NCBI GenBank assembly: GCA_028286545.1
Contig: JAQBRJ010000015.1
Coordinates: 1 to 38,761, forward strand
Source: Parcubacteria group bacterium
Lineage (GTDB): Bacteria; Patescibacteriota; Minisyncoccia; Phycocordibacterales; Phycocordibacteraceae
Length of the DNA: 38,761 nucleotides
Direction of reading: 5' to 3'
The translations under genes were made by a program, and so were the position numbers. Positions 892 through 15,705 of this stretch are shown piece by piece. A model generated the notes under the pieces. It made no database searches and had not been told where the DNA came from. It saw nothing but the letters and a program-made list of their open reading frames with translations. Numbering within the stretch: position 1 is the first letter of the stretch; every line of letters starts with the position of its first letter.

Positions 892-1311
892 ATGGCAAAA
901 GTAGTAAAAAAGATTAAGCTCCAGATTCCAGGCGGAAAGGCGACCCCTGCGCCTCCTGTTGGTACCGTTCTCGGTCCAGCCGGCGTAAACATTGGCGACT
1001 TCGTTAACAAGTTCAACGAACAGACCAAGGACAAGCCAGGCGTTATTATCCCGGTTGAAATGACCGTGTATGACGACCGCACGTTCACCTTTATCCTTAA
1101 GGTGTCTCCAATGCCTCGTCTCATCCTCAAGGCTCTCGGCGTTGATAAGGGATCAGGCAAGGCTCCTTCAAAGAAGGTGGGCACGCTTACCCGCGCACAG
1201 GTCCGCGAAATCGCTGAGACCAAGATGCCCGACCTTACGGCAGGCTCAATCGAAGCAGCAGAGCGCATGGTAGAAGGTACTGCACGTTCGATGGGTGTTG
1301 AGGTTAAGTAA
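892..1311 (+). CDS. rplK: 50S ribosomal protein L11
   Basis: uL11 binds the GTPase-associated centre of 23S rRNA and forms the stalk base contacted by translational GTPases. At 139 residues it is full length: the N-terminal domain with the proline-rich [16 protein letters not shown] segment (about 22-37) and the C-terminal rRNA-binding domain ending in [18 protein letters not shown]. No SD is visible. In most bacteria rplA follows directly; here a strong terminator follows and the next gene is on the other strand. Confidence 0.97.
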
Positions 1312-1322
1312 AGATACGTCCT

Positions 1323-1365
1323 AAAACGACAAAGCGGACTCCTAGGAGTCCGCTTTGTCGTTTTT
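1323..1365. terminator. bidirectional terminator, perfect 21-bp palindrome
   Basis: Positions 1323-1343 and 1344-1364 are exact reverse complements (centre CCTAGG), with AAAA on the left flank and TTTTT on the right, so the hairpin can stop both rplK and the convergent CofE-like gene. The last codons of the minus-strand gene, whose stop is at 1342-1344, lie inside the right arm, so the palindrome is partly coding. Confidence 0.9.
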
Positions 1366-2070
1366 GTCTTTAAAAAGAGGATAGAACACGTCGTCTTCGG
1401 GACGAATGCGAAGTGTGTCCGAACGGTCCTCGTCCGTGAATTCTACGAAGGGTGCGCTGCGGATGATGCATAGAGGCGTAGATTCGTCCGTCTCGCCCAT
1501 GACAAATCCGGCAGAAATGGCGAGGGCATCGACGACGTTTATATACGTGTACTTAAAGGCTCTCCCAAAGAGATCAGAGATTCCCGTGCGATCATTCACC
1601 GGTGCAAAGCCCGCATGCCCGATAGAAAGCGCAATGACACCTTGCCTGAACGGGAGCGCGCTGGAATCCGTTATAACGATACCAAGACGTTTTATGTGAT
1701 GTTTCGTGCGAAGATAATCTCGGATACGTGCAGCTGATTCTTGTGGATGTTCCGGTAGGAGCACAATAAAGCCTCCCGCATTACTTTCGTCGATCCCACC
1801 CGCAAAGGCGACCATGTCGTTCTTTATGGTGAGATCCCAAGCTCCTGGCGTCGAGGTGGGGATAATGGAGTCGCTCTCTTCTTTTATGAGTCGCTGTCGC
1901 CCTTCCTCGTCCGTGACCTGAACGCAGCGACCTTCGTGGATGGCCACTACTTTTGATGCGATTGCGACAATGTCTTCTTCCTGGAGCGCAGGTAGAGTAG
2001 TGTCGAGAACCTCGAAGAGATCATCTTTGGGTGGCTCGAACCTTCTTGTTTTGATAGGGATGAATTCCAT
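1342..2070 (-). CDS. CofE-like (F420-0:gamma-glutamyl ligase fold) protein, paralog A
   Basis: The 242-residue product matches the CofE family. It has an early VAIASKVVAIHEGR strand (about 35-48), the metal/GTP-site region GGIDESNAGG (91-100), LPEHPQESAARIR (105-117), ITDSS (133-137), RQGVIALSIGHAG (142-154) and DRTGISDLFGR (160-170). CofE adds glutamate to coenzyme F420-0 using GTP. No other F420 gene is visible, and CPR bacteria are not generally known to make F420, so the substrate is unknown and may be another amide-bond acceptor. It is divergent to a paralog across 79 bp. The -10-like TATGCT lies about 20 nt upstream; no SD was found. Confidence 0.75.
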   Translation of the reverse strand: MEFIPIKTRRFEPPKDDLFEVLDTTLPALQEEDIVAIASKVVAIHEGRCVQVTDEEGRQRLIKEESDSIIPTSTPGAWDLTIKNDMVAFAGGIDESNAGGFIVLLPEHPQESAARIRDYLRTKHHIKRLGIVITDSSALPFRQGVIALSIGHAGFAPVNDRTGISDLFGRAFKYTYINVVDALAISAGFVMGETDESTPLCIIRSAPFVEFTDEDRSDTLRIRPEDDVFYPLFKDKNDKADS

Positions 2071-2137
2071 TGAGGGGGTACGGTACTAGCATACCTTGTG
2101 TGAGAGGCTTCCGGAATGCACTTTTCTAGAAGTCGCG

Positions 2138-2143
2138 TAGAAT
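2138..2143 (+). promoter_or_regulatory. -10 element for leaderless CofE-like B
   Basis: TAGAAT followed by exactly 6 nt and then ATG 2150. Transcription starting about 7 nt after the -10 would begin at the start codon. No SD is present. Confidence 0.5.
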
Positions 2144-2149
2144 CACCGG

Positions 2150-2884
2150 ATGGAAATAACTCCGTTCCACATCGATACGCTGGTCCCACCCAAGGACGAT
2201 CTGCTTTCAAAGATACGCGCTTCCGAACTTACACTCGAAGAGCATGACGTCATTGCACTCTCGACAAAGGTGGTGAGTATCGGTCAGGGTCGGTGCGTTC
2301 CTCGAGAGGGAACTGATCGTGATGCGTTGATTGCCAGCGAAGCCGACCAATACCTCGAACGAGACCAGACTCCTGGAGGATTCGTGATGCACACGATAAC
2401 GAACGGCATGCTCATGGTGAATGCAGGCATTGATCCGTTCGCAGGATATTACGTGCTCTGGCCAGAGCATCCGAAGAAAACGGCAGAAGATCTCCTCGCT
2501 TGGTTCAAGAAGGAATATAAGAAAGAACATCTCTATCTCGTTCTCACAGATTCAAGGAGCGTCTTCCTGCGTCGCGGCGTCATCGGTATGGCCGTCGCAT
2601 GGGCTGGATTCGAGCCGATCTATGATAACCGAGCCCAGAACGACCTACTGGGCTTCCCGGGAGGCGGCAGCCAGACGAACGTACCTGATTCACTTGCAGC
2701 GAGTGCCGTGTTTTGTATGGGTGAGGCGAACGAAGGTACTCCACTCGTACGCATGCGAAACGTTCCCTATGTACGAGAGTCGCAAACGGGACGGAAGAAG
2801 AAATTTAATACGTTCGAGTTCGGCATAGAAGAAGACATCTTTGCTCCGTTCCTGAAAAATCTGCCTTGGAAGAAGAGAGGGTAG
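2150..2884 (+). CDS. CofE-like protein, paralog B
   Basis: A 244-residue homolog of the divergent neighbour. The shared framework is VIALSTKVVSIGQGR (about 34-48), NAGIDPFAGY (91-100), LWPEHPKKTAEDL (103-115), LTDSRS (132-137) and RRGVIGMAVAWAGFEPI. It keeps the two aspartates corresponding to D94 and D135 of paralog A. It lacks the SN pair after the first aspartate and has a glycine-rich insertion (FPGGGSQ) where A has FGRAF, so the substrate pocket has probably changed. A two-member family without other F420 genes suggests divergence to different ligase substrates. The function is not established. Confidence 0.7.
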   Translation: MEITPFHIDTLVPPKDDLLSKIRASELTLEEHDVIALSTKVVSIGQGRCVPREGTDRDALIASEADQYLERDQTPGGFVMHTITNGMLMVNAGIDPFAGYYVLWPEHPKKTAEDLLAWFKKEYKKEHLYLVLTDSRSVFLRRGVIGMAVAWAGFEPIYDNRAQNDLLGFPGGGSQTNVPDSLAASAVFCMGEANEGTPLVRMRNVPYVRESQTGRKKKFNTFEFGIEEDIFAPFLKNLPWKKRG

Positions 2885-2919: not shown

Positions 2920-3435
2920 TTATGATTCTCGTTCAAGTGTTACGAATGAGTATAAGAGACCGTCGTGATCGTGCGCTTCGTCTAGAAGTATGTTTGTAAA
3001 TTCATCTGCGTATTCTGGGAAGTATGCGTCGCCATCTTCGTTGCTGTCGACGATAGTGAGGTAGAGACGGTTGGTTAGAGGAAGTGCTTCTTTATATAAT
3101 TCGCCACCACCAATTATAAAAATCTCATCTGCGCCTGACGCATTTTTTGCTGCAACAAGTGCATCGGTAAGTGAATGGACGACAACGCCGCCTTCGGCGG
3201 CGTACGTTTCATCACGCGTCACAACAACATTTGCACGTCCTGGAAGTGGTCGGAACTTCGCTGGTATCGATTCCCACGTCTTGCGCCCCATGATCACAGG
3301 ATGCCCGCTCGTGAGTGATGTAAATCGAGCCATGTCTTCCGGCAATCGCCACAGAAGCTTATTGTCTCTGCCAATGGCTCGCGTCTCGCGGCTCAGTGCT
3401 GCAATCATCGATATACGCGTTCCTTCTGTCGTCAT
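2920..3435 (-). CDS. folA: dihydrofolate reductase
   Basis: Reduces dihydrofolate, produced by ThyA, to tetrahydrofolate with NADPH. The 171-residue product has the family motifs: MIAALSRETRAIGRDNKLLWRLPEDMARF (family catalytic acid in PEDM), VIMGRKTWESIP, PGRANVVVTRD and the NADPH-binding EIFIIGGGELYKEAL. The ORF track starts 7 codons earlier, but the ATG at 3435 fits the family N-terminus and lies exactly 6 nt after an extended -10. It is divergent from the nucleotidyltransferase gene and belongs functionally with thyA, dut, tmk and glyA downstream. Confidence 0.95.
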   Translation of the reverse strand: MTTEGTRISMIAALSRETRAIGRDNKLLWRLPEDMARFTSLTSGHPVIMGRKTWESIPAKFRPLPGRANVVVTRDETYAAEGGVVVHSLTDALVAAKNASGADEIFIIGGGELYKEALPLTNRLYLTIVDSNEDGDAYFPEYADEFTNILLDEAHDHDGLLYSFVTLERES

Positions 3436-3441
3436 ACACCG

Positions 3442-3450
3442 ACTATAGCA
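3442..3450 (-). promoter_or_regulatory. extended -10 (TGCTATAGT) of leaderless folA
   Basis: On the minus strand TGC-TATAGT is followed by 6 nt and ATG. It has the same geometry as the thyA, dut and argS promoters and fixes the folA start at 3435. Confidence 0.6.
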
Positions 3451-3517
3451 CCCCACACATACGGCAACTTGTCCGGCATATTGATGTGCGTCGTGAGTAG
3501 TATAGACTTAGGCAATC

Positions 3518-4189: not shown

Positions 4190-5020
4190 ATGAAGACGAT
4201 TGTTGCGTACGTACCGGTATTGCACGAAGGGTATCGGCGTTTCTTTGAGACTCATAAGGATGCAGATAAGGTTTTCATATTTGGCTCAGAAATTACTGGA
4301 AAGTTTCCGCAACTCACAAAGGAGATACGCGAGCTCAATCCGGAATTAATGAAAGGAGCAATCGAGTCACTCGGTATATTTGAAAATGTAATGGTGCTCG
4401 ATGAAAACACACTGGATGAATTGAATGATTCTACACACGAAATCTCACTTCCCGATGAAGACGTGTCACGGGAACTTGCAAAGGAATTCCTCCCTAACGC
4501 CAAGATTAGTTTCGACCCAATCTTTCTACGATGGGACAAGCACAATGCGTTGAAAGAAAAGCCTGTTGTTCCCAATGAGCAGATAACCACTGACGAACTC
4601 CATCGTCGCTTTATGGCCCTCGCAGAAAAAGACTCAGAAAAGAGCTCAGATATTTGGCGTCACGTAGGAGCTGCGATTGCGAAGGACGGGGAACTGATTT
4701 CCGTTACCCATAACACACACGTGCCGAGCGAGCATATGCCGTACGTGAATGGCGACCCTCGCAGTAATTTTCATAAAGGTGAATACCTGGAGCTCTCAAC
4801 AGCAATCCATGCTGAAGCCGCACTCATTGCTGAAGCAGCACGGAAGGGAATCTCGCTCGAAGGTACCGACATGTACGTTACGGTTTTTCCATGCCCACCA
4901 TGCGCGAAACTTATTGCATACGCAGGTATTAAAAATCTGTATTGCGGAGGAGGGTACGGTGTACTCGACGGCGAAGATATCTTGAAGAGTAGGGGAGTGA
5001 AGATACTGTTTGTGGAATAA
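4190..5020 (+). CDS. nucleotidyltransferase-like/dCMP deaminase fusion protein
   Basis: The C-terminal half (about residues 150-276) is a zinc-dependent deoxycytidylate deaminase: HAE (207-209) with the proton-shuttle glutamate and PCPPC (234-238) supplying zinc cysteines. It should convert dCMP to dUMP for ThyA. The N-terminal 125 residues begin TIVAYVPVLHEGYRRFF and resemble a nucleotidyltransferase Rossmann fold in which HxGH has become HEGY. That half may be inactive or regulatory. It lies 3 bp behind a nucleotidyltransferase with an intact HVGH, so the two products may interact. The deaminase assignment is strong; the N-terminal assignment is inference. Confidence 0.8.
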   Translation: MKTIVAYVPVLHEGYRRFFETHKDADKVFIFGSEITGKFPQLTKEIRELNPELMKGAIESLGIFENVMVLDENTLDELNDSTHEISLPDEDVSRELAKEFLPNAKISFDPIFLRWDKHNALKEKPVVPNEQITTDELHRRFMALAEKDSEKSSDIWRHVGAAIAKDGELISVTHNTHVPSEHMPYVNGDPRSNFHKGEYLELSTAIHAEAALIAEAARKGISLEGTDMYVTVFPCPPCAKLIAYAGIKNLYCGGGYGVLDGEDILKSRGVKILFVE

Positions 5021-6181: not shown

Positions 6182-7066
6182 CTAGATTGCGACAGGAATA
6201 TCACGCATGCCTGGGTGTGGCTCGTAATCAGAAAGTTCGAAGTCGTCCGAACGATACGCAAAGATATCGTCTTTCTTATTGATCATCGTAACGGTCGGGA
6301 GCGCTTTCGGTTCGCGGGCAATCAATTCTTCGACCATAGGGATCTGGTCTACATATATATGAGCATCAGAGAAGCTGTGTACGAATTCATATGGCTCGGT
6401 ACCCGTTGCATGCGCAATCATCATAAGAAGCGCCGTGTACTGAATCATGTTCGAAGGCACGCCCACCGGGAAGTCAGCAGAGCGCTGGAACATATGGAGC
6501 GTGAGCTTGTTGTCGATGATGCGTAGGTGAATCCATCCGTGGCAGGGTACTACTACAACTTTCTGTTGCTTACCGGTGCCGCGAATAATGTACTGCGGAA
6601 TCCACGGAGAGATAAAGTGCGTGCGCAGATGCGGGAACTCAATCATCTGCTCAATAATATTTTTCACTTGGTTGTAGTTTCCACCTTCTGCAGTAGGGAA
6701 GTCATGAAAGGCCGCGCCGTAAGAACCAGGACCAAGGTCGCCTACAGCGAGGCCGCGCTTCGCAGCTTTCTCGGGCGTGCCCCACGGTGTCCAAAACTTG
6801 CAGCCGAATGACTCGAGTTCTTCGAGGGTGCGTGCACCATTTATAAATGCGCAGATTTCACCGATCGATCCTTTCCAAAATCCTTTCACGCTCCGCTCGG
6901 TAATCATCGGGAATCCGTTCTCGATCTTAAAGTGCATCGATGGGGGTGCAATGACTGTAAGTGCATCGACCCCCTGCTGACTTTTCACGCGAACACCGTT
7001 ATCAAGAATGTATTTCAAATTGTCACGATATTGGGTGTCGGGGGTGCGTTCGGCGAAAGGTTTCAT
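6182..7066 (-). CDS. thyA: thymidylate synthase
   Basis: Methylates dUMP to dTMP using methylene-tetrahydrofolate and yields dihydrofolate. The 294-residue product has the catalytic cysteine in VVVPCHGWIHLRI, the dUMP-binding FQRSADFPVGVPSNMIQYTALL and the FVHSFSDAHIYVDQ motif (family: GDxHxY). The usual LPPCH is VVPCH here, a divergent but intact site. The ORF track starts 9 codons earlier; ATG 7066 is chosen because it lies exactly 6 nt after TGCTACTAT. It is divergent from dut and followed by a HIT gene. Confidence 0.95.
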   Translation of the reverse strand: MKPFAERTPDTQYRDNLKYILDNGVRVKSQQGVDALTVIAPPSMHFKIENGFPMITERSVKGFWKGSIGEICAFINGARTLEELESFGCKFWTPWGTPEKAAKRGLAVGDLGPGSYGAAFHDFPTAEGGNYNQVKNIIEQMIEFPHLRTHFISPWIPQYIIRGTGKQQKVVVVPCHGWIHLRIIDNKLTLHMFQRSADFPVGVPSNMIQYTALLMMIAHATGTEPYEFVHSFSDAHIYVDQIPMVEELIAREPKALPTVTMINKKDDIFAYRSDDFELSDYEPHPGMRDIPVAI

Positions 7067-7072
7067 ACGGCA

Positions 7073-7081
7073 ATAGTAGCA
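7073..7081 (-). promoter_or_regulatory. extended -10 (TGCTACTAT) of leaderless thyA
   Basis: Minus strand TGC-TACTAT, 6 nt, ATG. It is back to back with the dut promoter in a 52-bp intergenic region, so thyA and dut have divergent leaderless promoters. Confidence 0.6.
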
Positions 7082-7103
7082 TCCGTACCCCACTAGGCGA
7101 GAG

Positions 7104-7118: not shown

Positions 7119-7547
7119 ATGGATATAGAAATCAGACGGTTCGATAAAGACCTCCCACTCCCTGAATATAAGACGGCAGGAGCTGCCGCTATGGATTTAT
7201 GCGTCCGCGAAGACGGTGTTGTGCCCCCACACGGCATTACCGTATTTCCCTTGAATATAGCCATTAAGCCACCAGTAGGACACTTTGCGCTTATGGCCGC
7301 TCGCAGCTCACTTCGCAAACGCGGACTCATGCTCGCAAATGGTATTGGTGTGCTCGACGAAGACTACGCCGGCGATGAAGATGAATACCAAGCGGCTTTG
7401 TACAATTTCACCGATGAACCGGTAGAAATTAAAAGGGGAGAGCGCGTGGTGCAAATCATTCTCTTGCCATTCGATAGAGTGAATTGGAAAGAAGTCGACA
7501 CACTCGGCACGCCGAGTCGCGGTGCGTTCGGAACGACCGGTCTGTAA
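7119..7547 (+). CDS. dut: dUTP diphosphatase
   Basis: Hydrolyses dUTP to dUMP and PPi, keeping uracil out of DNA and feeding ThyA. At 142 residues it is a standard trimeric-type dUTPase. All family motifs are visible: AGAAAMDL, AARSSLRKRGL (motif 2), NGIGVLDEDYAGD (motif 3 with the catalytic aspartate region), RGERVVQIILLP (motif 4) and RGAFGTTGL (motif 5, slightly shortened). It is followed 6 bp later by tmk, giving a dut-tmk-glyA run on the plus strand. Confidence 0.96.
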   Translation: MDIEIRRFDKDLPLPEYKTAGAAAMDLCVREDGVVPPHGITVFPLNIAIKPPVGHFALMAARSSLRKRGLMLANGIGVLDEDYAGDEDEYQAALYNFTDEPVEIKRGERVVQIILLPFDRVNWKEVDTLGTPSRGAFGTTGL

Positions 7548-7553
7548 AACGAT

Positions 7554-8240
7554 ATGGCTTTCATCGCGATAGAAGGGATAGATGGTGTCGGGAAAGCAAC
7601 ACAGACCAAGCTGCTTGCTGAGGCGCTACGTCGCGATGGCAAGGTATGTCATACGTATGACTTTCCTGACTACACTAACAATACCTACGGCAAACTGATC
7701 GGCGAATGTTTAGCAGGGAAGCGCGGAGATTTTGTACACATGGACCCGCGTGTCGCCGCAACGCTCTATATGGTCGATCGCTTTGAATCTTCTCCCCGTA
7801 TTCGCGAAGCGCTTGCACGTAGTGAGGTAGTTATTAGCGATCGATATTCTGCATCCAATAAGATTCACCAAGGAGGAAAGATTAAGGATGAGGATGAGCG
7901 AGTTGAACTGGTGGAGTGGTTTGATCACGCTGAGCACGAAATTCTCGGAAACCCACGACCTGACCTGATCATTTATCTAGATGCGCCAGTGAGCGTGAGT
8001 CTTGGTCTTCTCGCCCAGAAGCGCGCAGCGAAGAATGGAAACGTCATCGACGGAGAATCAGATCAAGTTGAGAAAGACCGTGAATATCTCGATAATAGTC
8101 ACGAAATGGCGACATGGTTGGCGGCACGCAATTCCCACTGGCATGGTATTGATTGCATCGACGGAGCAGGGAATATGCGTTCTCGCGAGGATATCCACGC
8201 TGATGTTATGCAGGTCGTGTTAAGCCTCCTTTTGATATAG
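7554..8240 (+). CDS. tmk: dTMP kinase
   Basis: Phosphorylates dTMP to dTDP, the step after ThyA. The 228-residue product opens with the P-loop IEGIDGVGKATQTKLL (the family usually has GKST/GKTT) and has the DRF and ISDRYSASNKIHQG segments that contact the nucleotide, plus the LID-like region LAQKRAAKNGNVIDGESD. It has no SD and sits 6 bp after dut, so it is probably the second gene of that unit. Confidence 0.93.
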   Translation: MAFIAIEGIDGVGKATQTKLLAEALRRDGKVCHTYDFPDYTNNTYGKLIGECLAGKRGDFVHMDPRVAATLYMVDRFESSPRIREALARSEVVISDRYSASNKIHQGGKIKDEDERVELVEWFDHAEHEILGNPRPDLIIYLDAPVSVSLGLLAQKRAAKNGNVIDGESDQVEKDREYLDNSHEMATWLAARNSHWHGIDCIDGAGNMRSREDIHADVMQVVLSLLLI

Positions 8241-8249: not shown

Positions 8250-9533
8250 ATGGAGAAGTACGCACACATTGAAAAAGAAGACCCAGAAGTATTTGGCGCA
8301 ATCGTCGGCGAAGAGAAGCGACAGGCCGAAGGGCTGGAACTTATTCCTTCGGAGAACTACGTTTCGAGTGCGGTGCGCGAAGCAATGGCCAGCGGACTCA
8401 CGAATAAATATTCGGAAGGCTATCCAGGCAAACGTTACTATGGCGGACAGGAGTTTACAGACTCAGTAGAAAACATTGCTCGTGATCGTGCCAAAGAGCT
8501 TTTTCATGCGTATGCCGCAAACGTACAGCCACTCGGTGGCGCGAATGCAAACATAGCAGCCTACATGGCACTCTGCGCTCCGGGTGACACCATCCTTGGT
8601 ATGGATCTGTCGCACGGCGGTCACCTCACGCACGGTCACCCGGTAACCTACATTTCAAAAGTATTTAACTTTGTGCGTTACTCAATGAAAGATGTAGAGA
8701 CCGGCGAAATTGACTACGACGCACTCCTGGAAACAGCAAAGAAGGAACGGCCGAAGATTATCCTCGCTGGTTTCTCCGCGTATCCACGAACACTCGACTG
8801 GAAGCGTCTCTCAGATATTGCACGCGAAGTCGACGCATACTCCGTGGCAGACGTTGCGCACATCGCAGGACTCATTGCTGGAGGTGCAGCAACAAGCCCC
8901 TTTGATTACGGCTTCGACGTCATGACAACCACGACCCACAAAACTCTTCGTGGCCCACGTGGCGGCATGATCCTAACCAATGGTGGGGGAGACGCCGAAC
9001 GCGCAGCAGATATCGCAAAGAAGGTGGACAAGGCAGTGTTCCCCGGGCTCCAGGGTGGCCCACACATGCACCAGATTGCCGCAAAGGCCATTTCCTTCAA
9101 GGAGGCACTTCAGCCATCGTTCAAGACGTACGCAAAGAACATTGTTGAAAACGCTGCGGCAATGGCAGAGGTGTTTAAGGCGAGCGGAGCTCGCCTCCTT
9201 ACCGGTGGCACCGACAACCACCTCATCCTCGCAGATGTATGGTCGTCATTCGGTATCTCTGGCGCTGAAGCAGAAACCCTTCTCGACAACGCGGGCATGA
9301 CGCTCAATAAGAACAGCATCGCAAATGATACACGCGGCCCGATGGATCCATCAGGTATTCGTTTTGGTACTCCTGCAATGACGACTCGCGGCTTTGGTAC
9401 GGAAGCAAGCAAAGAAGTCGCCAGTCTTATGTTGAATGTTTTGAAGAATCGCGACGAGGCAAGTGTTGCCGCTGCTCGCGCACGTGTGCACGAACTCGCT
9501 GCTGCGCATCCAATCCCTGAATCGTTCGTTTAA
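8250..9533 (+). CDS. glyA: serine hydroxymethyltransferase
   Basis: A PLP enzyme that converts serine and tetrahydrofolate to glycine and methylene-tetrahydrofolate, the one-carbon donor for ThyA. The 427-residue product is full length. It shows LIPSENYVS, TNKYSEGYPGKRYYGGQE, the PLP-aspartate region SVADVAHIAGLIAGG and the Schiff-base lysine motif TTTTHKTLRGPRGG. It closes the folate cycle with folA and thyA in this neighbourhood and could also supply glycine for the glyS gene further on. Confidence 0.97.
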   Translation: MEKYAHIEKEDPEVFGAIVGEEKRQAEGLELIPSENYVSSAVREAMASGLTNKYSEGYPGKRYYGGQEFTDSVENIARDRAKELFHAYAANVQPLGGANANIAAYMALCAPGDTILGMDLSHGGHLTHGHPVTYISKVFNFVRYSMKDVETGEIDYDALLETAKKERPKIILAGFSAYPRTLDWKRLSDIAREVDAYSVADVAHIAGLIAGGAATSPFDYGFDVMTTTTHKTLRGPRGGMILTNGGGDAERAADIAKKVDKAVFPGLQGGPHMHQIAAKAISFKEALQPSFKTYAKNIVENAAAMAEVFKASGARLLTGGTDNHLILADVWSSFGISGAEAETLLDNAGMTLNKNSIANDTRGPMDPSGIRFGTPAMTTRGFGTEASKEVASLMLNVLKNRDEASVAAARARVHELAAAHPIPESFV

Positions 9534-12324: not shown

Positions 12325-15300
12325 ATGAGCGAAAAGGACAAGACTCCGCAGGTGCTAAAGAAATCCGACGCCTCGGCGCGTGAGGAGGTCATACTCGAGT
12401 TTTGGAAGGAGCACGATATCTTCCAAAAGAGCCTTCAAAAGGAAGCGCCCAACGGCGAGTTTGTCTTTTATGATGGTCCGCCATTTGCGACAGGTCTTCC
12501 GCACTCTGGCTCTCTCCTTTCCTCAGTTTCTAAAGATGTATTTCCGCGCTACAAGACAATGCGTGGCTTTAACGTGCGTCGTCGTTGGGGATGGGACACC
12601 CACGGGCTTCCTATTGAATCGCTCGTTGAGAAAAAACTTGGTCTCAAGAATAAGAAAGAGATACTCGAAGTTGGTATTGAAACATTTAATGAAACGGCAC
12701 GCTCAATGGTGCTTGAATATGTAAATGACTGGAAGAAGTACGTCGAACGCGTCGGTCGCTTTGTCGATTTTGATAATTCATACAAGACGCTCGACCCATC
12801 GTTTATGGAATCGGTATGGTGGGCACTCGCCGAGATAAACAAGAAGGGGAACTTGTACGAAGGTCGCAAAGTGCTCATGTATTGTCCGCACTGTGAGACT
12901 CCGCTCGCAAAGGCCGAGATCGCGATGGATAACACCTATAAAGATGTTACCGACGAAACCGCGACTGTTAAATTTAAACTTGTAGACCCAACAAAGTATG
13001 GATTGCCTGAGAATACCTACCTTCTCGCATGGACGACGACACCGTGGACGCTTCCCGGGAACGTCGCACTCGCCGTAGGGAAGGAGATTGCATATGGTCT
13101 GTACGAAAAAGATGGACAGAATGTAGTTGTTGCAAAAGATCTTGCTGAGAAAAATGGTCTCACTGATTTGAAACAAGAACTTTCTGGCGCTGACTTACTC
13201 GAAGCGCAATACGAACCTCTCTACGAACTCCCGAGAGTCGCAGCGCACACCGGCAAGAAGTGGCTCGTGCTACCTGCTGATTTCGTAAACACCGAAGACG
13301 GTACGGGTATCGTACACACCGCTGTCATTTATGGTGAAGATGACTATCAACTTGGTCTTGCGGAAGGGTTGCCAATGGTGCCGATCCTAAATCCAAATGC
13401 GACGTACAACAACGATGCACCAGAGTTTATTCGCGGTCAGTATATTCGCAAAGCGGAGGCGCTCATAAAGAACGATCTCGAAGAACGCGGACTTCTTTTT
13501 GCAAAAGCACCCTATACCCACTCGTACCCGCATTGTTATCGTTGTGGCACAGCACTTATCTTCAACGCGGTCTCGTCGTGGTTCATCAACATTCAGGCAA
13601 TCAAGGAACGCATGCTCGAAGAGAATCAAAAGATCACCTGGACTCCTGAGTACCTCAAAGAGGGAAGGTTCCGTCACAATCTTGAGACAGCACCAGATTG
13701 GACTATTTCTCGTAATCGCTTCTGGGCGACGCCCCTTCCTATTTGGAAAGATGCTCTCGGAAACGTAACCGTTATCGGTTCTATAGAAGAGCTCAAAGCT
13801 CATACAAAAACCAATGGCAATACGTATTATGTGATGCGTCATGGTCAGGCACACTCAAACGTTGAAGAACGTGGAAACTCCGATCCAAAGAAGGAGAATC
13901 CTCTTACAGACCTTGGTCGCAGCCAGGTGAACGAGACGGCAGAGGGTCTTAAGACTGCAGGTATCGAATATATCTATGTATCGCCCATGCCTCGTGCACA
14001 AGAAACGGCACATATTGTCGCGAAGACTCTCGGACTCTCTGAAGATCGCATCGTCACTGAGCCGCGGTTGATCGAAAATGATTTTGGTCAGATGGATGGA
14101 ATACTCATTAGTGAGTATGAGACGCGCTACGCACGACGTGCAGACAAAATGACGCAGTCGCCTGAAGGCGCCGAAGCGTGGCATGACATAAAGACTCGCA
14201 TGGCAGACGCTCTCTACGACATCGAGAGCAAGCACACTGCGAATACTATTCTTATCGTTTCTCACGAAGGACCAATTCAAATGCTCGAAGCAGGAGCTCG
14301 TGGATACGATGATAAGACTTCTGGCGAAGCGATTGAAGATTGGCGTTTCTGTCTCGAAACGGGACATGCGCGAAAGCTTGAGTTCGTGCCGCTTCCGCAC
14401 AATAAGCACTTTGAACTCGATCTGCACTTGCCATATATCGATCGCGTACAGCTTCAGAATGAGAAGGACGAACCGCTCACGCGTATTCCTGAAGTCGTCG
14501 ACTGCTGGGTCGAGTCTGGCTCAATGCCCTTTGCGGAATACCACTACCCGATGGAAGGTCGTGAAGAATTCGAAAAGCGTTCCCATGCAGATTTCATCTC
14601 AGAATATATCGGCCAGACACGCGCCTGGTTCTACTACCTGCACGCGATAAGTTTGTCATTGTTTGATACTGCAGCGTTTAAGAATGTCGTAACGACGGGA
14701 ACGGTGCTTGCTGGTGATGGTGCAAAGCTCTCGAAGAGCAAGATGAACTATACCGATCCGTATCATCTCTTTGATAACTATGGTGCCGATGCCTTCCGTT
14801 ACTACCTGATGTCGTCAGTGGTGATGCAGGCCGAAGACCTTACGTTCCGCGATGATGATGTAAAGGAATCGCACAATCGTGTGGTCGCGATGCTTCGCAA
14901 CGTGATGAGTTTCTATGATATGTATGCGGGTGAGGTGACAGAAAGCACTTCAACAACTGAGCACGTACTTGATCGTTGGATACGGGTTCGTCTTGCCGAC
15001 TTGATACGAAATGCGACAGAGTCGCTTGAGCGCTATGACGTCATCCGTGCAACACGCCCACTCCGTGATTTTATTGACGACCTTTCAACGTGGTATCTTC
15101 GTCGTTCACGCGAACGCATGAAGGGTGAGGATACGGCAGACAAGGCTGCTGCTCTCCAGACCCTCAGCTTCGTGCTTAAGGAACTTTCTCTTGTAATAGC
15201 GCCTGTCATGCCATTTATCGCCGAAGAGATATATCAGAAGCTCCGTACTGAATCTGATCCTGAGTCAGTACACTTGGCTTCGTGGCCAGAAGCAATGGAT

Positions 15301-15705
15301 GCAGCCGACGCAGAGCTTCTTGAGAATATGGCACGCGTTCGCGCGCTGGCATCTGAAGCGCTCATGCTTCGTCAGAAGGCAGACATGAAAGTTCGACAAC
15401 CTCTCGCGAGTCTTTCTATTCCTGAAGCATTGCCTGCAGATCTTTCGAATATTCTTGCCGAAGAAGTGAATGTGAAAAAAATAATCCCTGGTTCTGCAGA
15501 GCTTGTGCTCGATACGGTACTTACGCCTGAGCTAATCGCTGAGGGGGATGAGCGTACGTTTGCACGTGCCGTGGCCGAAGCGCGCAAGACCGAAGGTCTT
15601 GCGCCTCAGGATAAAGTTGAAGCGAAGCGAAGCGATGACGGTATCTACACCGCTGAACTCTCAACGGGCTCGGTGAAATTCTCACTCGTACGCAATGCGA
15701 CATAA
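12325..15705 (+). CDS. ileS: isoleucyl-tRNA synthetase with inserted histidine-phosphatase domain
   Basis: A class I synthetase of 1126 residues, longer than many IleRS. In order: catalytic start with DGPPFATGLPHSGS (53-63 region), where the HIGH motif reads HSGS at 60-63; CP1 editing domain with WTTTPWTLPGN and GTGIVHTAVIYGEDDY; the ISRNRFWATPLPIW segment; a complete histidine-phosphatase (phosphoglycerate-mutase-like) domain at about 498-665; DLHLPYIDRV and PEVVDCWVESGSMPFAEYHYP; KLSKS at 801-805; helical anticodon domain. The insert has RHG (R505-H506-G507), SPMPRAQETA, ENDFGQMDG and VSHEG (H647), so all expected phosphatase catalytic residues are present. recO overlaps its end by 11 bp. 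The role of the insert is unknown. Confidence 0.93.
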   Translation: MSEKDKTPQVLKKSDASAREEVILEFWKEHDIFQKSLQKEAPNGEFVFYDGPPFATGLPHSGSLLSSVSKDVFPRYKTMRGFNVRRRWGWDTHGLPIESLVEKKLGLKNKKEILEVGIETFNETARSMVLEYVNDWKKYVERVGRFVDFDNSYKTLDPSFMESVWWALAEINKKGNLYEGRKVLMYCPHCETPLAKAEIAMDNTYKDVTDETATVKFKLVDPTKYGLPENTYLLAWTTTPWTLPGNVALAVGKEIAYGLYEKDGQNVVVAKDLAEKNGLTDLKQELSGADLLEAQYEPLYELPRVAAHTGKKWLVLPADFVNTEDGTGIVHTAVIYGEDDYQLGLAEGLPMVPILNPNATYNNDAPEFIRGQYIRKAEALIKNDLEERGLLFAKAPYTHSYPHCYRCGTALIFNAVSSWFINIQAIKERMLEENQKITWTPEYLKEGRFRHNLETAPDWTISRNRFWATPLPIWKDALGNVTVIGSIEELKAHTKTNGNTYYVMRHGQAHSNVEERGNSDPKKENPLTDLGRSQVNETAEGLKTAGIEYIYVSPMPRAQETAHIVAKTLGLSEDRIVTEPRLIENDFGQMDGILISEYETRYARRADKMTQSPEGAEAWHDIKTRMADALYDIESKHTANTILIVSHEGPIQMLEAGARGYDDKTSGEAIEDWRFCLETGHARKLEFVPLPHNKHFELDLHLPYIDRVQLQNEKDEPLTRIPEVVDCWVESGSMPFAEYHYPMEGREEFEKRSHADFISEYIGQTRAWFYYLHAISLSLFDTAAFKNVVTTGTVLAGDGAKLSKSKMNYTDPYHLFDNYGADAFRYYLMSSVVMQAEDLTFRDDDVKESHNRVVAMLRNVMSFYDMYAGEVTESTSTTEHVLDRWIRVRLADLIRNATESLERYDVIRATRPLRDFIDDLSTWYLRRSRERMKGEDTADKAAALQTLSFVLKELSLVIAPVMPFIAEEIYQKLRTESDPESVHLASWPEAMDAADAELLENMARVRALASEALMLRQKADMKVRQPLASLSIPEALPADLSNILAEEVNVKKIIPGSAELVLDTVLTPELIAEGDERTFARAVAEARKTEGLAPQDKVEAKRSDDGIYTAELSTGSVKFSLVRNAT

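Follow-up and report, generated by a model that had tools for sequence, protein, structure and literature searches.

Which reaction is served by two CofE-like ligases that lie side by side in the genome of a Parcubacteria group bacterium? In the present study, this question was addressed using a stretch of 38,761 nucleotides (contig JAQBRJ010000015.1; hereafter, the window) from a source genome of 0.67 Mb that is 84% complete. The original prediction described two paralogs with CofE motifs and conserved aspartates facing away from each other across 79 bp, and our results agreed with this description: ORF calling placed paralogs A and B in divergent orientation (Table 1), both matched PF01996 (F420_ligase) well above the Pfam gathering cut-off of 25 (A, 6e-36 and 124 bits; B, 1e-28 and 100 bits), and the metal-site residues D109 and D150 (CofE numbering) are present in each. 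Alignment of the two proteins over 242 columns gave 36% identity (E 2e-48). Their only significant relatives in the PDB are the entries of A. fulgidus CofE (2g9i/2phn/7uld), and CofE was also the sole PDB match of the AlphaFold models (pLDDT 92.6 for A and 93.6 for B), with a TM of about 0.8 for A and about 0.75 for B. A consensus scan of the gap between the genes detected no sigma-70-like promoter. The palindromic stem and T run that extend into the 3' end of the gene for A are likely the terminator of the rplK operon.

Table 1. Positions of the two ligase genes and of the surrounding features in the window.
Feature	Position	Strand	Basis
rplK (ribosomal protein L11), bordering the conserved slot on the left	892..1311	+	Sequence reading alone; same order in related loci
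19-bp palindromic stem and T run	1323..1364		Extends into the 3' end of A
Paralog A, putative canonical FolC2-type gamma-glutamyl ligase, 242 aa	1342..2070	-	PF01996; TIGR04132; residues; tree
A/B intergenic region, 79 bp	2071..2149		ORF borders
Paralog B, derived FolC2 subfamily by sequence, 244 aa	2150..2884	+	Residues; 7-member clade with sister-genus orthologs
Dihydrofolate reductase (folA), convergent with B	2920..3456	-	PF00186, 165 bits
Deoxycytidylate/cytidine-deaminase-like protein, nucleotide cluster	4190..5020	+	PF00383
Thymidylate synthase ThyA	6182..7093	-	PF00303, 210 bits
dUTPase	7119..7547	+	PF00692
Thymidylate kinase	7554..8240	+	PF02223
Serine hydroxymethyltransferase GlyA	8250..9533	+	PF00464, 501 bits

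The relatives of A and B that were retrieved in searches bear names of the Patescibacteria or Candidate Phyla Radiation (CPR), including Kaiserbacteria, Parcubacteria, and others; genomes were scanned for these relatives with a six-row alignment as the query. Four A/B-like sequences labelled Geminicoccaceae, Micrarchaeota, Saprospiraceae, and Alphaproteobacteria (L159, L160, L172, and L183) were found amid the Patescibacteria sequences and are probably mis-binned contigs. Elsewhere in the window, at 12325-15705, the tRNA-synt_1 catalytic region of an isoleucyl-tRNA synthetase-like ORF (1126 aa) is interrupted by an inserted histidine phosphatase domain (residues 502-662; PF00300, 116 bits).

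The CofE fold and the conserved aspartates of A and B are consistent with both acting as CofE in the synthesis of F420 or another deazaflavin, the remaining pathway genes being unrecognized or missing from the assembly. However, no candidate for cofD and no match for cofG, the two genes covered by the search, were found in the 84%-complete source genome, and cofD did not exceed the cut-off in any genome of the 287 sampled from the phylum. To this extent, the lack of F420 genes noted in the original prediction was upheld, and a complete F420 pathway did not emerge. Weak cofD matches below the cut-off occurred in other genomes and in the E. coli control, and probably represent related proteins of the YvcK/YbhK type. 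Against the cofE equivalog model TIGR01916, A scored 140 bits and B 88 bits, both of which are under the cut-off of 180.65. The stretch of CofE that includes C155 contacts the F420 chromophore, and the active site is located at the dimer interface (PMC10861534); the F420-contact residues G153-C155 are replaced in A and B, with Pro at the position of C155 in 125 of 126 family members and in A. Considering also that the pair is situated in a folate cluster, we regard an F420 function as very improbable, and the best explanation is that A and B belong to folate metabolism.

The gene neighborhood points in the same direction. Genes for folate and thymidylate metabolism accompany A and B in the window (Table 1), and the order SecE-NusG-L11-FolC2-DHFR-...-ThyA-Tmk-GlyA, with a single FolC2 gene, was found, complete or partial, both in Kaiserbacteria-like loci (L113, L117, L119, L124-L126, and L181) and among genomes of the order and family to which the window belongs. 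Of the 26 sampled genomes that have both genes, 11 have a DHFR-family gene at a distance of no more than about 5.5 kb from FolC2, against a chance expectation of about 0.3 (relatedness uncorrected). The original prediction, which overlooked the adjacent folate genes and the FolC2 precedent described below, proposed a different amide-ligase job, such as the modification of a cofactor, peptide, or wall precursor. A role outside F420 was borne out, with cofactor modification being the most likely; a peptide or wall-precursor substrate gained no support. Since CofE-fold enzymes make amide bonds, a peptide or cell-wall precursor is chemically possible as the acceptor of an amino acid, but the folate and thymidylate neighbors in many genomes and the presence of the family, which tracks FolP and DHFR and avoids FolC, leave little probability for such an acceptor.

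Two further observations concern this cluster. The deaminase-like protein shows weak similarity to models of anti-phage dCTP deaminases (67 and 78 bits); in this cluster, a role in nucleotide metabolism is more likely. The ThyA of the window scored 430-470 bits against the homologs in L119, L042, and L057 and about 100-140 bits against most of those in its own family, and this closer resemblance suggests that the ThyA-HIT-deaminase block may have arrived by transfer.

Regarding the identity of the ligases, the published precedent is CT611 of Chlamydia trachomatis (COG1478, FolC2). A role as a dihydrofolate/folylpolyglutamate synthase was proposed for this protein, which can stand in for folC in an E. 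coli mutant, as shown by complementation (PMC1971073). TIGR04132 (folate gamma-glutamate ligase) was the best NCBIfam model for both proteins of the window over nearly their full length, with 200 bits for A (140 bits for TIGR01916) and 155 bits for B (88 bits). Paralog A retains GIDESN, TDS...PFR, and FGR, in accordance with the active-site pattern of the family (GIDESN, TDS..xP[LM]R, FGR). The family of A and B shares D109, S111, N112, D150, R157, and D181 with CofE (AfCofE numbering); position 41, a Thr in AfCofE, is an invariant lysine in the family. No FolC was detected in the 84%-complete source genome, the best match to a FolC model scoring 30 bits where the cut-off is 163; at this completeness, a FolC gene could sit in the missing part. 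Dihydropteroate synthase (FolP) and FolD were also not found in searches of this genome. Neither A nor B reaches the TIGR04132 cut-off of 350 bits, and this shortfall, together with the lack of a FolD match, was counted against an assignment to FolC2.

The distribution of these genes across the phylum was informative in this respect. In the sample of 287 genomes, DHFR was present in 139, FolC in 55, and the family of A and B in 36. Within the 139 that carry DHFR, the family was found in 26 and FolC in 39, with no genome carrying the two together (p=1.4e-4, phylogeny uncorrected); FolC and a family member occurred together in two genomes (G020 and G244), in neither of which DHFR was detected. 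As many as 62 of the 139 DHFR-positive genomes have neither FolC, nor the family of A and B, nor a related CofE-like type, so that not all of the DHFR-positive genomes would rely on these enzymes for polyglutamylation. Based on the folate neighbors, the absence of a detected FolC, and the mutual exclusion of FolC and the family, A is best read as FolC2.

A cell that has FolP requires a dihydrofolate synthase. The 27 FolP-positive genomes divide without overlap into 13 with FolC, three with the family of A and B, 10 with another CofE-like type, and one with none of these, and FolP is associated with CofE-like genes among the FolC-negative genomes (p=5e-9, phylogeny uncorrected). In view of the requirement for a dihydrofolate synthase, CofE-like enzymes of FolP-positive genomes very likely perform the job of FolC. 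The other CofE-like type was found in FolP- and DHFR-positive genomes without FolC (L012-L016, L020-L023, L026, and L027), mostly of the GTDB family f77 (L014, f85), and may be an independent FolC2-like dihydrofolate synthase; among carriers of high-scoring CofE-like types, 10 of 16 have FolP. A divergent PF01996 type was also observed (L234 7448-8152, L235-L238, L241, L242, L069, L070, and L063), which scored 36-45 bits in the two members checked, is mostly about 230-245 aa in length, and has the motifs DANxxG and DNPxGQxxExTP. In the 98 sampled genomes of the window's genus, this type is present in 39 and FolC2 in 15, never together (p=3e-4, uncorrected).

Paralog B differs from this canonical pattern. 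Its motifs are GIDPF, in which two residues of GIDESN are deleted, SVFLR, and LLG...GGSQTN, and FGR is gone; the altered metal-site neighborhood that was originally predicted for B is therefore real. By the numbering of A, the residues S96, N97, P140, F168, and R170 are missing (S111, N112, P155, and R185 by that of CofE), and K40, E64, D95, D134, R141, and D165, which are nearly all residues of the catalytic framework, are kept. Orthologs with 56-68% identity to B occupy the same rplK-folA slot in seven sister-genus genomes (G518, G519, G520, a partial one in G521, G522, G523, and G524). GIDP[FL] and the two-residue deletion are common to these orthologs wherever the region is present, LLG/ILG...GG[ST]QTN or a close form occurs in every one (SAGSQTN in G523 and GGSQVN in G521), and the change from P to F is shared by all except those of G524 and G521. 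The B copy of an additional genome, G517 (L243 7690-8489), is split over three frames in the assembly, and is either a pseudogene or the result of sequencing errors. The seven full-length members form one clade (100/100) inside the slot lineage; the other members of that lineage are canonical, and those from the genus of the window are among them. Judged by these sequences, B is a conserved derived FolC2 subfamily of the rplK-folA slot and probably a re-specialized folate ligase; the deletion of SN beside D109 and the changes in the FGR loop suggest that binding on its metal and glutamate side is altered. A decaying pseudogene in the source genome was not favored, because the orthologs carry the same motif changes.

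Phylogenetic analyses separated the histories of the two genes. The original prediction implied a tandem paralogy, and a recent tandem duplication, with A and B as sisters, was rejected (AU p=0.006), the tree giving two old lineages instead; the placement of A inside the clade of B slot genes was also rejected (AU p=0.004). Paralog A groups with folC2 of Kaiserbacteria-like genomes (92/82 and 94/76 in two trees, neither starred). A canonical companion was found in six of the nine genomes with B and in none of the eight with a canonical slot gene (p=0.009, relatedness uncorrected). Besides the window, G519, G520, G521, and G522 carry it outside the slot or on another contig, and in G518 it is represented by a fragment at the end of a contig. 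The companions of the sister genus are of a different lineage from A, and a single companion clade was rejected (AU p=0.0004). The simplest reading is that canonical FolC2 was acquired more than once alongside a B of changed activity, from at least two unrelated lineages. This reading is weakened by G517, G523, and G524, in which no canonical companion was found at 99, 95, and 90% completeness, respectively.

These patterns bear on two other views of B. The first is that the B subfamily is declining and being displaced by canonical FolC2 acquired through transfer, as might be surmised from the frameshifted copy in G517, from the resemblance of A to folC2 of another lineage and its position in the same slot, and from the unrelated single FolC2 genes of several genomes of the genus. 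The unusual motifs and new conserved residues shared by the sister-genus orthologs indicate purifying selection rather than decay, and the reading frame of B in the window is intact; we thus consider displacement to be unlikely. In the second view, B would pair with canonical FolC2 in a mixed dimer, as a regulatory subunit or one without catalytic activity, and could thereby tune A. A dimer-spanning active site such as that of CofE (PMC10861534), the predicted retention of the fold in B, the conservation of its derived motifs at 56-68% identity, and the frequent presence of a canonical copy would all suit such a partner, whereas the unrelated lineages of the companions show no sign of co-evolution, nearly the whole catalytic framework is kept, and three genomes with B show no companion. 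A role solely as a partner is, accordingly, also rather doubtful.

Taken together, we consider it quite probable that A is a FolC2 that acts on salvaged folate and replaces FolC, and that B represents a derived subfamily that likely also works on folates. The present analysis established the family, fold, residues, synteny, phylogeny, and co-occurrence of the two proteins; their substrates and division of labor are inferred. Paralog A is suggested to be a nucleotide- and metal-dependent ligase with a CofE fold that adds gamma-linked glutamates to salvaged folate in place of FolC; since FolP was not detected, its role in this organism would be polyglutamylation. If the mechanism follows that of CofE (PMC10861534), the folate tail would first be phosphorylated at its terminal carboxylate in a nucleotide-dependent step, and the resulting acyl-phosphate would then be attacked by glutamate, the active site being located at the dimer interface and holding two metals. 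The polyglutamylated folate would be retained in the cell and better bound by DHFR, ThyA, and GlyA. In B, the framework of K, D, and R is kept, and the metal and glutamate side, with SN deleted, and the FGR loop are rebuilt; folates are most likely still the substrates of B, although its specificity would differ or its canonical activity would be lower, and the standard reaction would be covered by the canonical copy, namely, A in this organism and the unrelated copies in the sister genus. B may be an active ligase with a different specificity, an enzyme of low activity, or the partner subunit of another protein. We tentatively entertain, as somewhat less than an even chance, that B has been neofunctionalized for a folate-linked step beyond ordinary polyglutamylation, which may differ in the acceptor, in the amino acid added, or in chain length, or may instead be a regulatory role within a mixed dimer; if so, this would explain why canonical FolC2 of unrelated origin is often present in genomes with B.

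FolC2 itself is already known. Our literature search found no report of FolC2 in Patescibacteria or of the B subfamily, and a recent survey of folate genes in CPR bacteria tracked folA, glyA, and folD, its main text being without FolC, F420/CofE, or polyglutamate (PMC11974145). The present results suggest that many CPR cells use a CofE-fold FolC2 instead of FolC, that annotations as F420 ligase in this phylum are to be read as folate genes, and they raise the question of the role of B beside DHFR.

A and B can be compared with three known enzymes. With the Mur-ligase-type folylpolyglutamate synthase FolC, they share the predicted folate reaction; FolC has a non-homologous fold, was not found in the source genome, and alternates with the family of A and B across the phylum sample. 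With A. fulgidus CofE (AF2256; 2phn/7uld), they have in common the fold, the metal-site residues Asp109 and Asp150, the TDS..R.G core, and likely an active site at the dimer interface, and they differ from it in the replaced G153-C155 stretch, in the lack of a detected F420 pathway and, in B, in the loss of S111/N112 and R185. In context, they resemble CT611, which is also a CofE homolog without other cof genes, in a folate neighborhood and in a genome without FolC. The present organism differs in that, with no FolP detected, only salvage and polyglutamylation would be needed, and in that it has two diverged copies, not one.
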